Assembly: GCF_017565305.1 (NCBI RefSeq)
Contig: NZ_JAGEKP010000003.1
Location: 558,001-622,000 of the forward strand
Reading direction: 5' to 3'
Source of the DNA: Leifsonia sp. TF02-11
Lineage (GTDB): Bacteria; Actinomycetota; Actinomycetes; Actinomycetales; Microbacteriaceae
Length of the DNA stretch: 64,000 nt
Shown here: piece after piece, positions 1-47,461 of the stretch
Layout: the number at the start of each line of letters is the position of its first letter
Position numbering within the stretch: the first letter of the stretch is position 1
Translations under genes and position numbers: made by a program
The notes under the pieces: generated by a model
Told to the model about the DNA's origin: nothing
Databases searched by the model: none
Seen by the model: only the letters and a program-made list of their open reading frames with translations

Positions 1-1010
1 GGCTGGCCCTCGTCGAAGTCCCCGAGCCGCAGATCGGCCCGGAGGACGTCAAGATCCGGGTGCTCCGCACCGGCATCTGCGGAACCGATCTGCACATTCT
101 GCGCTGGGACGACTGGGCGGCCTCCGCCGTCGCCGCGCCGCTGGTCCCCGGTCACGAGTTCTACGGCGAGGTCGTGGAGGTCGGCGACCTGGTGCACGAC
201 GTGGAGGTCGGCGACAAGGTCTCCGGCGAAGGCCACATCGTCTGCGGCACCTGCCGCAACTGTCGGGCGGGCCGCCGCCAGATGTGCATCCGCACGAAGG
301 GTGTCGGCGTGCAGCGCGACGGCGCCTTCGCCGAGTATCTCGTGCTGCCGGCGACGAACGTGTGGGTGCACCACACCGGAATCGAGCCGGAGGTCGGCGC
401 GCTGTTCGACCCGCTCGGCAACGCCGTGCACACGGCGCTGGCGTTCCCGGTGGTCGGGGAAGACGTGCTCGTCACCGGCTGCGGTCCCATCGGGTTGATG
501 GCGATCGCCGTCGCCCGGCACGTCGGCGCCCGCTTCATCGTCGGCACCGACGTCAGCGCGCAGCGGCTGGAGTTGGCGAAGGGCATGGGCGCGGACTTCA
601 CCGTCGACGTCTCGAAGCACGACATTCGCGAGGCCCAGCGGGCGCTCGGCATGCGCGAGGGCTTCGACGTCGGCTTCGAGATGAGCGGCGCACCGACGGC
701 GCTCCCCTCGATGATCGAGAACATGAACCACGGCGGCCGCATCGCGATGCTCGGGCTGCCCTCCCAGACCATCGCGATCGACTGGGGCATCGTCGTCACG
801 CACATGCTCACCCTCAAGGGCATCTACGGCCGCGAGATGTTCGAGACCTGGAACGCGATGGGCGCGATGCTGCAGACCTCCAAGCCGCTGCACGACTCGA
901 TCGCCTCGATCGTGTCCGACCGTTTCCCTGCGCGCGACTGGGAGAAGGGGTTCGCCGCGGCAGCAGCGGCCGGCGGCGGCAAAGTCATCCTCGACTGGAC
1001 GGAGCTCTGA
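1..1010 (+). CDS. tdh: L-threonine 3-dehydrogenase, 5'-truncated by window edge
   Basis: Zinc- and NAD-dependent oxidation of L-threonine to 2-amino-3-ketobutyrate in the cytoplasm. The reading frame is open from base 3 and the start lies before the window. The 335 visible residues against about 341 in the family suggest only some ten residues are missing. Family landmarks are clear: the catalytic-zinc cysteine in [25 protein letters not shown], the structural-zinc cysteines in [15 protein letters not shown], the Rossmann GCGPIGLMA, and the Tdh-typical [11 protein letters not shown] near the C terminus. The stop shares a base with the kbl start (TGATG), so the two genes are translationally coupled. 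Identification is firm. Confidence 0.95.
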
Positions 1011-2197
1011 TGTACGGGACGTTTCGCGAGCACCTCGCAACGCAGCTGGCAGAGATCGAGGAGGCCGGGCTCACCAAGCGGGAGCGCAGCATCCACGGCC
1101 CGCAGGCGGCGCTGATCACCGCAGACGGCGCGGAGGTGCTGAACTTCTGCGCCAACAACTACCTGGGCCTCGCCGACCATCCCGTCCTCCGCGATGCGGC
1201 GAAGTCGGCGCTCGACGAGTGGGGCTACGGGATGGCGAGCGTGCGCTTCATCTGCGGAACGCAGGAGCAGCACCTCGAGTTGGAGCGCCGGGTCTCCGCG
1301 TTCCTCGGCACCGAGGCGACGATCCTGTTCTCGTCGTGCTTCGACGCCAACGGCGGCGTGTTCGAGACCCTGTTCTCGGCGGAGGACGCGATCGTCTCCG
1401 ACGAGCTCAACCACGCGTCGATCATCGACGGCATCCGGCTGTCGAAGGCGCAGCGCTACCGCTACCGCAACCGCGACCTGGACGATCTGCGCGCCCAGCT
1501 CACCGCGGCACGCGATGCCGGAGCCCGGTACACGGTGATCGTCACCGACGGCGTGTTCTCGATGGACGGCTACATCGCGCCGCTCCGCGAGATCTGCGAC
1601 CTCGCGGACGAGTTCGGCGCGCTGGTCTTCGTGGACGACTCGCACGCCGTCGGCTTCGTCGGCGAGCACGGCAGGGGGACGCCGGAGTTCTGCGGCGTCG
1701 CGGACCGCGTCGACATCTACACGGGCACGTTCGGCAAGGCGCTCGGCGGCGCGTCCGGCGGCTACGTGTCGTCGCGGAAGGAGATCGTCGACCTGCTGCG
1801 CCAGCGCGCCCGCCCGTACCTGTTCTCGAACACGCTCGCTCCGTCGATCGTGGCGGGCACGCTGGCCGCGCTCGACCTGTTGGAGCAGTCCGACGAGCTG
1901 CGCGCGCAGCTGCTGGGCAACGCGGTGCTGTTTCGCGAGCTCATGACGGAGGCCGGATTCGACCTCCTGCCCGGCGAGCACCCGATCGTGCCGGTGATGT
2001 TCGGCGACGCCGCGCTCACCGCCCGCATCGCGGACGAGATGCAGAAGCACGGCGTCTACGTCACCGCGTTCTCGTTCCCGGTGGTGCCGCGCGGCAAGGC
2101 ACGCATCCGGGTGCAGCTGTCGGCGGCGCACACCGACGAGGAGATCCACCGCTGCGTCGACGCCTTCACCGCGGCACGGGAGGCCGTCGGCGCCTGA
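1010..2197 (+). CDS. kbl: 2-amino-3-ketobutyrate CoA ligase (glycine C-acetyltransferase)
   Basis: PLP enzyme of the alpha-oxoamine synthase family. It cleaves 2-amino-3-ketobutyrate with CoA to glycine and acetyl-CoA, completing threonine breakdown begun by Tdh. It has 395 residues, the normal length. [12 protein letters not shown] near residue 48, the [10 protein letters not shown] stretch near 209 and the PLP lysine K243 in GTFGKALGG are all present. The ATG at 1010 was chosen because it overlaps the tdh stop; the frame stays open far upstream but reads antisense-like sequence there. The gene is followed directly by the palindromic box array at 2199. Confidence 0.96.
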
Positions 2198-2198
2198 G

Positions 2199-2368
2199 AT
2201 TCGTCACGAATGTCGCTTTTCGTGCCACGAATGTCGGCATTCGTCACGAATCTCGCTTTTCGTGCCACGAATGTCGGCATTCGTCACGAATGTCTTTCGT
2301 GCCCCGAAGGTCGAGATTCGTCACGAATCTCGCTTTTCGTGCCACGAATGTCGGCATTCGTCACGAAT
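2199..2368. repeat. Array of alternating 13-nt palindromes at 20-bp spacing
   Basis: Box A (ATTCGTCACGAAT, perfect 6-bp arms around one base) occurs at 2199, 2239, 2279, 2316 and 2356. Box B (TTCGTGCCACGAA, also 6-bp arms around one base) sits between them at 2219, 2259 and 2336, with a degenerate copy at 2296. The unit is therefore about 40 bp (one spacing is 37), with palindromes about every 20 bp, close to two helical turns. The array fills the gap between the kbl stop and the convergent esterase stop. A shorter A-B-A copy lies at 47409-47461. Function is unknown; a protein-binding array or a REP-like element are the main options. Confidence 0.9.
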
Positions 2369-2382
2369 GTGGCGTCTCGGGC

Positions 2383-3753
2383 TTACTCGGCGTCGACGGC
2401 GGCGACTGCGCGGCGGCGCGTGAAGAACAGGAGTAGCTGGACCCCGAGGAAGGCCGCGAGCGCGCTGAGGTCGACGATCGTCACCGTGCCGGCGACGGCA
2501 GCCGCCTGAGTCAGCCCGCACGCGCGGGCGGTCTGGTCGGGCGTGCACAGGAAGCGGTCGTTCGACGGGATCGCGCCGGAGGCGAGCCAGCGCGGGATGA
2601 GCTGGTTGTAGGCGGTGGCGAGCCCCGGCTCGAGGGCTTGGGTGTGCGTCGCGTCCGGAACGGCCCAGTAGGTGACCTTCCAGCCGGCCTTCTCTGCGGC
2701 GGTCGCCGTGGCCTCCACCTGGGGCCGGAAGTGCGGGTCCAGTGCCCCGGCGACGAAGATGCCTGTCATCGGCTCGGGATACGTGGACGATGCCAGGATG
2801 TTCTCCGGCCAGGTGGCCTGGTACGCCGCCGCGCTGCCGCCGTAGTAGGTGTTCTGCGTGAACGTCGGCCGGTGCTCGCCCGGCTTGTCAGGCCCGGAGA
2901 TGTCGACGACGTTGCCCCAGGTGCCCGGATGCTTCGCCCCGAGGTAGGCCGCGCACTCGCCGCCGTGCGAGTAGCCGGCGATCACCCAGTCCTCGCGGTC
3001 GCCGCTGGCGGGGAGGTTGGCGTGGATCCAGTCGGGCACGTCCTTCGACAGGTAGGTGTCGAGCTTGCCGCCGACGGTGTCGCTGCACGGCGGGTTCTTG
3101 TCGATCGCGCCGATCTGGTCGACGACGAGGATGAACGGGGCGTCGTCCAGGCGCTCGGCCCCGAGGCTGTGCAGGGCGTCGAGGGTCGCGCCCAGCGTCG
3201 GCCTCCCCGGCTGGCCCATCATCATCTCCACGACCGGGCGGGTTGTCGCGGGGTCGCGCAGCCACCCGGAGGGGACGAACAGGTGGGCGTCGCGCGCCGA
3301 GAAGCCGGAGGCGGTCGGCGGGATGTGCACGGTCAGTTGCGCGCCGTTCGCGAGGTTGTCCGGGGTGAGCGGCACGGCCTTACCCGCGATGGTCGCCGTC
3401 GCCAGCGTCGGTCGCAGCGTGAGGCCGGTGGCCGCGACCCCGGCCAGTCCGGTGACGACCGTGAGCGCGAGCGCGATGTTCCGGGAGCCGCCGCGGGACT
3501 GCAGCACATCGCCGAGGGCGAGGGGCAGGGCCAGCGACGCGAGCGCGATCGCGAACCAGCCGACTCCACCGAGGTCGGGTCGCGGCGCGAGCAGGCACCA
3601 CAGCAGGACGAACACGAGCCCGGCGACCTGGCCGATCAACACCGCCTTGACCGTCAGTCCCGCGCGGAACCGCCACGCGCGCACGCCGAATCGCCAGGCC
3701 GGGTAGGCGGCGAGCAGGCCGAGTGCGAGTGTGAGCCAGGCGAGAGTCCCCAC
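2383..3753 (-). CDS. Membrane-anchored alpha/beta-hydrolase (putative esterase)
   Basis: The 456-residue protein has about four N-terminal membrane helices (within residues 1-120), then a periplasm-facing esterase domain with the nucleophile elbow GYSHGG, and one C-terminal helix before a basic tail. The architecture resembles the antigen-85/esterase-D-like membrane esterases of Actinobacteria; the substrate is unknown. A late histidine in the sequence DATHTQA probably completes the triad. The GTG at 3753 is preferred over the GTG at 3762 because TAGGGT ends exactly 7 nt upstream, a leaderless arrangement. It converges on kbl across the palindrome array. Confidence 0.75.
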   Translation of the reverse strand: MGTLAWLTLALGLLAAYPAWRFGVRAWRFRAGLTVKAVLIGQVAGLVFVLLWCLLAPRPDLGGVGWFAIALASLALPLALGDVLQSRGGSRNIALALTVVTGLAGVAATGLTLRPTLATATIAGKAVPLTPDNLANGAQLTVHIPPTASGFSARDAHLFVPSGWLRDPATTRPVVEMMMGQPGRPTLGATLDALHSLGAERLDDAPFILVVDQIGAIDKNPPCSDTVGGKLDTYLSKDVPDWIHANLPASGDREDWVIAGYSHGGECAAYLGAKHPGTWGNVVDISGPDKPGEHRPTFTQNTYYGGSAAAYQATWPENILASSTYPEPMTGIFVAGALDPHFRPQVEATATAAEKAGWKVTYWAVPDATHTQALEPGLATAYNQLIPRWLASGAIPSNDRFLCTPDQTARACGLTQAAAVAGTVTIVDLSALAAFLGVQLLLFFTRRRAVAAVDAE

Positions 3754-3776
3754 GCCCTCCACCCTAACCGGCCGGG

Positions 3777-47408: not shown

Positions 47409-47461
47409 ATTCGTCACGAATGTCGCTTTTCGTGCCACGAATGTCGACATTCGTGACGAAT
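47409..47461. repeat. Second copy of the 20-bp-spaced palindromic boxes
   Basis: Box A ATTCGTCACGAAT at 47409, box B TTCGTGCCACGAA at 47429 and box A with inverted centre (ATTCGTGACGAAT) at 47449, exactly 20 bp apart, as in the array at 2199. The intervening GTCGCTTTT is also shared with 2212-2220, so the two loci are homologous and not merely similar palindromes. It lies between the ltaE start and the stop of the upstream minus-strand SDR gene, where it could affect termination or ltaE initiation. Confidence 0.88.

Follow-up and report, generated by a model that had tools for sequence, protein, structure and literature searches.

What does an array of two alternating palindromic boxes do, lying between two convergent genes and recurring in a shorter version 45 kb away? 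The question arose in a 64,000-nucleotide stretch of Leifsonia sp. TF02-11 DNA (hereafter the window), for which the initial annotation described five A boxes and four B boxes alternating at about 20-bp spacing, and proposed either cooperative protein binding on one face of the helix or a REP/BIME-like repeat. The alternation was borne out over 2199-2368, as was the three-box copy at 47409-47461. The spacing held with one exception, since box starts advance in 20-bp steps throughout, bar a single step of 17 bp (2279 to 2296). The features are as follows, the boxes and the second copy being given without a strand.

1010..2197, plus strand, upstream gene; its stop lies 1 bp ahead of the array
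2199..2211, no strand, A box 1, ATTCGTCACGAAT
2219..2231, no strand, B box 1, TTCGTGCCACGAA
2239..2251, no strand, A box 2, closing the first complete A-B-A unit (2199-2251)
2259..2271, no strand, B box 2
2279..2291, no strand, A box 3
2296..2308, no strand, B box 3, with one mismatch; it starts 17 bp after the start of A box 3, the sole irregular step
2316..2328, no strand, A box 4
2336..2348, no strand, B box 4
2356..2368, no strand, A box 5, the array terminus
2383..3762, minus strand, convergent gene on the far side, with 14 bp between its stop and the array
47409..47461, no strand, second copy, a single A-B-A unit (A 47409-47421, B 47429-47441, A 47449-47461)

The upstream gene presumably encodes a glycine C-acetyltransferase (kbl), judging from its sequence, and is called kbl-like below. 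As the initial annotation had it, both loci adjoin gene ends: the second copy, too, is separated from the adjacent stop codon by only 1 bp. Boxes of this kind are far more frequent in the window than chance would give, with nine A-like matches (at most one mismatch) vs. 0.93 expected and seven B-like matches (at most two mismatches) vs. 1.48 expected; none of 100 shuffled windows reached the A-like or the B-like count.

A dispersed 53-bp element at gene 3′ ends

The repeating unit is a 53-bp A-B-A in which A is ATTCGTSACGAAT, B is TTCGTGSCACGAA and starts lie 20 bp apart. The window array is a run of such units overlapping through A boxes held in common, which corrects its earlier reading as an open-ended array; elsewhere the unit occurs singly or in tandem with spacers. 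The boxes are not confined to this region, as exact ATTCGTCACGAAT sites number 226 (112 + 114) in the 5.09-Mb assembly of the genome (G000), where the reversed-pattern control gave 0. The same assembly holds 255 A-N7-B half-matches (both strands, at most three mismatches) and at least 107 units, this being the number with both outer boxes of type ATTCGNNNCGAAT at the exact spacing. Nor is the spacing random: of 754 forward matches found in nine Leifsonia genomes at spacers of 24-32 bp, 704 have a spacer of exactly 27 bp. In several G000 contigs (C1, C5, C6, and C12), the first 500 bases include an array within about 150 bases of the contig start, suggesting that the repeats break the assembly.

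The element is widespread in Leifsonia. A scan of named contigs found at least 73 stretches, which among the matches listed all belong to three Leifsonia genomes, and a search of 398 Microbacteriaceae genomes at the exact spacing matched 9 of the 10 Leifsonia and none of the 388 from other genera. A looser pattern, with the three central bases of the outer boxes left free, matched 22 of 28 Leifsonia genomes, with a maximum of 338 matches (G014). Plasmid records gave no match.

Copies sit characteristically just beyond stop codons. With a codon-score gene caller, 93 of 102 clusters could be placed, the other nine being at locus edges; 57 were convergent, 33 tandem, and 3 divergent, vs. 119, 285, and 114, respectively, among all 518 gaps longer than 5 bp in the same loci. 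The median distance to a stop-side neighbour was 18 bp (n = 147), with 87 distances of at most 20 bp and 117 of at most 40 bp. Occupancy of a single site differs between relatives, as seen just downstream of the kbl-like gene, where 25 of the 27 junction loci pulled were aligned (G013 and G016 could not be anchored). This junction holds the array in G000, one unit in G024, a TGC-type unit in G027, mixed boxes in G019, a 53-bp element with ATTTGCCGCAAAT boxes in G026, ATTTGCGCCAAAT boxes in G018 and G009, and nothing in G008. The family present at one site, if any, therefore varies among related species.

The boxes of the unit are strongly conserved. We collected 161 distinct A-B-A copies from the window and loci L061-L153, at up to six mismatches over the 39 box positions; 112 had no mismatch, 38 one, four two, two three, three four, and two five, although these low numbers partly reflect selection, because most loci were fetched by exact pattern. 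In G008, 44 half-elements at up to three mismatches had none in 29 cases, one in 13, two in none, and three in two. The consensus of the 158 fully flanked copies is GAS-ATTCGTSACGAAT-STCGAS-ATTCGTGSCACGAAT-STCGAS-ATTCGTSACGAAT-STC, in which the boxes are more conserved than the linkers and outer ends, a pattern that would be expected if the boxes were under selection while the linkers drifted. Nine positions (0, 7, 14, 19, 27, 35, 40, 47, and 54) are almost always C or G, the commoner letter accounting for 51-61% and the other for 35-46%. The ends are symmetric (GAS-...-STC), and the 158-copy profile contains no GTAG or CGTC tag there. A/T tracts centred near positions 2, 12, 21, 33, 42, and 52 recur about once per helical turn (~10 bp), in agreement with the helical phasing that had been suggested for the array.

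Recognition as duplex DNA or as a hairpin

Palindromes placed after stop codons might act in RNA, as bidirectional terminators or as stabilisers of mRNA 3′ ends, with the nuclease described below either acting on the RNA hairpin or being unrelated. Such a role would agree with the location of the copies, with their enrichment in convergent gaps (57/93 vs. 119/518), and with their strong predicted folds: a single strand of the first unit is predicted to form one long hairpin of −24.0 or −22.3 kcal/mol, depending on the strand, and the second unit reaches −31.0 and −31.2 kcal/mol. However, the copies do not vary as a maintained hairpin should. Across the 158 copies, the C/G positions at the edges of each box are complementary less often than expected (58 vs. 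76.6, 46 vs. 70.3, and 59 vs. 73.0), and the C/G pairs of the long hairpin behave similarly (53 vs. 75.7 and 57 vs. 73.4). In a second repeat family, introduced below and sampled here in G019, an A/G position is independent between the arms, being the same in 16 of 32 copies vs. 15.9 expected. G021, whose middle box is different, has several columns restricted to A/T or to G/C, and some of its positions show a weak excess of pairing (e.g., 32 vs. 20.4) while others show none. Hairpin covariation is thus unsupported in the main family and at the A/G position of the second, and weakly present in G021. A terminator would, moreover, need no fixed spacing with free spacer sequence, and this explanation leaves the flanking of one nuclease gene on both sides unaccounted for. 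We consider an RNA function improbable as the primary explanation, although the good folds and the weak signal in G021 leave room for a hairpin role. A search for known RNA families over window positions 1900-2700 yielded two matches, both far under the gathering scores.

Recognition of duplex DNA through a pattern of strong and weak base pairs would fit these sequences better than hairpin pairing does. The part of the initial annotation that had a protein reading phased boxes is supported by the fixed spacing, the variable spacer sequence, and the lack of hairpin covariation at the positions restricted to C/G or to A/G, with binding itself putative.

A Vsr-like nuclease gene flanked by the element

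A candidate reader of the element emerged from its arrangement in other genomes. Paired elements lie 929-1021 bp apart in G026, G024, G008, G021, and G002, and the three of these intervals whose sequence was inspected each contain a single gene. The encoded protein matches Pfam MTES_1575 at 31.9, 34.5, and 23.4 bits, below the curated 38.2, and DUF559 in two of the three; MTES_1575 is entered as a novel Vsr-type REase in a list within PMC3710099. The C-terminus of the nuclease is encoded within the 3′ element (RFVTNVDIRGTKVDIRDE). G000 has an uninterrupted ortholog outside the window (G000:C34:491994-492878), whose 3′ end bears an element and whose 5′ side bears an array. Among 25 orthologs from 25 species (49-100% identity), the 53-bp element is found on both sides of 19, on one side of four (G014, G001, G020, and G006), and on neither side of two (G011 and G007); a different 55-bp palindrome lies near the nuclease of G007. 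The arrangement is specific to this gene. The window and the loci fetched with the element contain 490 predicted genes. Exact elements adjoin 118 of these genes on one side or both, and a single gene, the nuclease, has them on both; this count overlooked two further nucleases (L114, called too short, and L079, with inexact boxes).

Read by eye, the box alphabets (ATTCGTSACGAAT, ATTCGTGCCGAAT, and ATTTG-type) group broadly by nuclease subclade. There are exceptions: the G023 nuclease has both TSA and TGC boxes, and those of G012, G018, and G025 have ATTTG-type flanks, yet these genomes hold 26, 25, and 42 ATTCG-type elements, respectively. Two further features were seen beside these genes. In G014, the genome with the most matches, a segment that we take from its sequence to be insertion-sequence-like adjoins the 3′ element of the nuclease gene (L035 and L041), and TCCACAG, shorter than the DnaA-box-like 9-mer described below, occurs beside 20 of the 25 main orthologs (a raw count).

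At the protein level, 13 of 15 aligned members match the MTES_1575 profile and 11 of 15 the DUF559 profile at E ≤ 0.01. In the C-terminal nuclease-like core, 63 of 67 proteins retain the full set of catalytic-type residues (E182, D215, E226, D230, and H232); this count and the nuclease tree cover 67 of the 70 Leifsonia nucleases, L242, L252, and the 181-aa L263 being left out. One departure is the main nuclease of G008 (Leaf336; L079:2026-2967), which reads FQYEGDGH in place of FEYEGDGH, so that Q replaces E226; the protein may be inactive, although G008 keeps its elements. In the C-terminal half of a structure model examined for a PD-(D/E)XK fold, secondary structure runs in the order helix-strand-strand-strand-helix-strand, at a pLDDT (40.9) that makes the model unreliable. 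The nearest solved sequences are both weak matches, to an endonuclease-like protein (3hrl, E 0.052) and to 3r3p, labelled “Mobile intron protein” (E 0.92), which we take to be I-Bth0305I. In PADLOC, as many as 9 of the 15 members, though not the main nuclease, are hit by AbiEi models, and this similarity suggests a DNA-binding part in the family. No homolog was confirmed in viral contigs.

These observations support the reading that we favour, with a probability of roughly 0.6: the array and its copy are a dispersed non-coding palindromic element whose partner is an MTES_1575/DUF559 (Vsr-like), PD-(D/E)XK-like nuclease encoded elsewhere in the genome. The AbiEi resemblance also admits a second explanation, that the protein is mainly an AbiEi-like DNA-binding regulator with a relic nuclease fold, the elements being its sites for chromosome organisation or regulation and having spread by ordinary recombination. 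Conserved boxes with variable linkers are what working sites would look like, an element lies near the 5′ end of the nuclease gene, and the loss of E226 in G008 fits a relic. Against this stand the retention of catalytic-type residues in nearly all of the proteins, the position of the sites at gene ends and away from promoters (divergent gaps hold 3 of 93 clusters vs. 114 of 518 gaps), and the turnover of families at the kbl-like junction, unexpected for a fixed regulon. We regard a mainly regulatory system as unlikely, if the most serious of the competitors.

The REP/BIME comparison was the other proposal of the initial annotation, and part of it stands: the copies are dispersed, lie at gene 3′ ends, and have a partner gene beside which the same element occurs. 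REP sequences and REPINs, which are associated with RAYTs, are short intergenic palindromes present in many copies, and the RAYT is single-copy, does not spread itself, and has its own repeats adjoining; if one genome has several such partners, they are distinct from each other (according to passages of PMC3116915 and PMC3733652). What does not stand is the enzyme. The Y1 transposase profile PF01797 found nothing at E ≤ 1 (0 of 1) or, at E ≤ 0.01, in any of the 28 Leifsonia genomes, while controls matched (10 and 6 of 14), which contradicts a RAYT partner. It is therefore very improbable, and the least credible of the explanations weighed here, that the element is a classical REP/BIME or REPIN family moved by a RAYT, or that it is a MITE belonging to a DDE transposon, even though it is palindromic, dispersed, at 3′ ends, and beside a partner gene: the flanked gene matches MTES_1575/DUF559 and not a transposase, and the short target duplications of constant length that a MITE would leave were not found in the site comparisons described below.

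The favoured Vsr-like partnership is best read as resembling that of REPINs and RAYTs, built on an unrelated nuclease that would read double-stranded palindromes. The likeness lies in a single-copy enzyme gene, adjoining repeats, and dispersed non-autonomous copies (compare the account in sections of PMC3116915); the differences are that the Leifsonia partner is a PD-(D/E)XK-like, Vsr-like nuclease whereas a RAYT is an HUH tyrosine transposase, and that the Leifsonia copies look as though they are read as duplex DNA with fixed spacing. As for mechanism, the nuclease may bind the element as double-stranded DNA with one dimer per palindrome, and the bound dimers would all lie on one face of the helix, perhaps wrapping the DNA, in which A/T tracts recur about every 10 bp. 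Cutting followed by copying repair could then seed new elements in the gaps after stop codons, the element beside the nuclease 5′ end would let the nuclease regulate itself, and, as with RAYTs, the enzyme gene would stay single-copy while its repeats multiply.

Mobilisation is plausible. Of seven comparisons of filled and empty sites, one displays an 18-bp target duplication and six have no clean one, although one of the six “empty” sites may hold an element remnant. The positive case concerns the second family: in L048 (265-374), an 18-bp sequence spanning the stop codon of a gene occurs on both sides of the element, with filler of 7 and 10 bp, and the empty site in L049 has it once, with one mismatch.

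Paralogous nucleases, further repeat families, and wider significance

Most of the ortholog-bearing genomes encode further nucleases of ~35-45% identity, and comparable repeats flank these paralogs. A repeat common to the left and right flanks (score ≥ 16) was found for 59 of 78 paralogs (33/40, 22/33, and 4/5), vs. 20 of 1500 random 780-bp intervals. Many of these repeats are palindromic, the strong ones most often 57 bp and mostly 51-73 bp long, 73 being where the method stops; only palindrome lengths and examples are used from that analysis, because its score null was contaminated by source loci chosen for holding elements. Within one genome, the paralogs’ repeats are almost never alike, with one pair at ≥30 bits in each identity class (<40%, 60 pairs; 40-45%, 12 pairs; counts worked back from rounded fractions). 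This within-genome part alone was kept from a comparison of nuclease distance with flank similarity; the rest was set aside, as the flanks consist mainly of syntenic neighbour genes. One clade of seven nucleases (L274, L285, L368, L370, L374, L376, and L378) has no repeat common to both flanks; such repeats may have been lost from this clade, or it may have lacked them from the start.

A second family, GARGGGCACSNAAACGCCCC, has a distribution that follows that of its own nuclease clade. Among the 28 genomes, it has 145 matches in G026, 112 in G019, 107 in G024, 93 in G027, 27 in G008, 24 in G000, 7 in G023, and 0-1 in the other 21, the reversed-pattern control also giving 0-1. A nuclease clade with support of 97/95 comprises members from exactly the six genomes with 24-145 matches, that is L249 (G026), L280 (G019), L254 (G024), L276 (G027), L259 (G008), and a frameshifted remnant, L252 (G000); these counts are not independent, because the six genomes represent related species. 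The nearest nucleases outside the clade (in G002, G010, and G005) have other repeats. G023 has its seven copies and no such nuclease among those found, and the flanks of the second nuclease of G027 differ from the family counted in that genome.

Two short motifs accompany the paralogs. Among 70 Leifsonia nucleases, 25 have a DnaA-box-like 9-mer (TTATCCACA/TGTGGATAA) in the 450 bp upstream, and all 25 are paralogs (25/45, vs. 0/25 main orthologs and 0/3000 random 480-nt windows; e.g., L249, L251, L265, L267, L268, L272, L276, L278, L280, and L283). The 9-mer also occurs within 500 bp in 3 of 28 loci from other genera, and could belong to a promoter or reflect a connection with replication. The 8-mer ACACGCCG is present in 29 of 78 paralog loci (e.g., L248, L251, L277, and L282) vs. 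8.3% of background windows, often within palindromes otherwise unlike each other, and is possibly a common core of these palindromes.

The association extends beyond the genus. Counting Leifsonia, 49 of 69 Microbacteriaceae genera matched the nuclease profile (50 of 70 genomes). A shared flanking repeat was present in 20 of the 28 loci returned from the 48 other-genus genomes with a match, whereas swapping the flanks as a control gave one in 2 of 756 cases. In a sample from the whole phylum, the profile matched 40 of 149 genomes, belonging to 36 of 119 genera, and 15 of the 29 loci returned from the 39 other matched genomes scored ≥ 16 (14 of 26 after removal of three cut by contig ends), vs. 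3 of 812 controls. This breadth bears on a further explanation, in which the elements are old functional sites of an unknown nucleoid protein and merely happen to lie next to the nuclease gene. Phased, strongly conserved boxes would suit such sites; however, incidental flanking leaves unexplained the elements around 19 of 25 orthologs, the separate repeats around 59 of 78 paralogs, and the loci in other genera, and we give this explanation very little weight.

Comparison with described systems places the partnership of palindrome and Vsr-like nuclease outside them. It does not belong with REPIN-RAYT systems because the enzyme differs, no Y1 transposase being found in the 28 genomes. CGTC-tagged REPs are presented without a known transposase in the relevant part of PMC3733652; for the Leifsonia element, in contrast, a candidate enzyme is identified, and the ends lack a GTAG or CGTC tag. 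The nucleases share with EDxHD/Vsr-like homing endonucleases (e.g., PDB 3r3p) a weak profile match over the EYxGDxHR...D...R core (E 0.92) and a tie to a mobile DNA segment. Such homing endonucleases sit in introns or as free-standing genes, and we know of no dispersed, non-autonomous palindrome family for them. Resemblance to AbiEi antitoxins and DUF559 proteins is seen in the PADLOC and Pfam matches, but the Leifsonia members are flanked by cognate repeats. Among the matches listed from open-licence PMC articles, none linked MTES_1575 or DUF559 to palindromic repeats. Since REPIN-RAYT systems differ in their enzyme and no such literature link was found, we rate the pairing of an MTES_1575/DUF559 nuclease with palindromic repeats as categorically new, with a putative function.

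A wider proposal, to which we give even odds, is that MTES_1575/DUF559 nucleases drive a large, unrecognised class of dispersed palindromic elements across Actinomycetota, each nuclease reading its own phased duplex palindrome (~50-70 bp) and seeding copies after stop codons by cutting and repair, with several independent pairs per genome. If so, REP-like repeats would have arisen by a route independent both of RAYTs and of DDE transposases. The Leifsonia case links a dispersed palindrome with one identified gene from an unrelated nuclease group, and such pairs exist many times in parallel, which makes the origin and maintenance of transposase-less REP-like palindromes directly testable. The finding suggests a role for a common protein family of unknown function, whose nucleases may each recognise a long and distinct DNA palindrome, and it points to a mechanism, not yet described, for the spread or maintenance of repeats.
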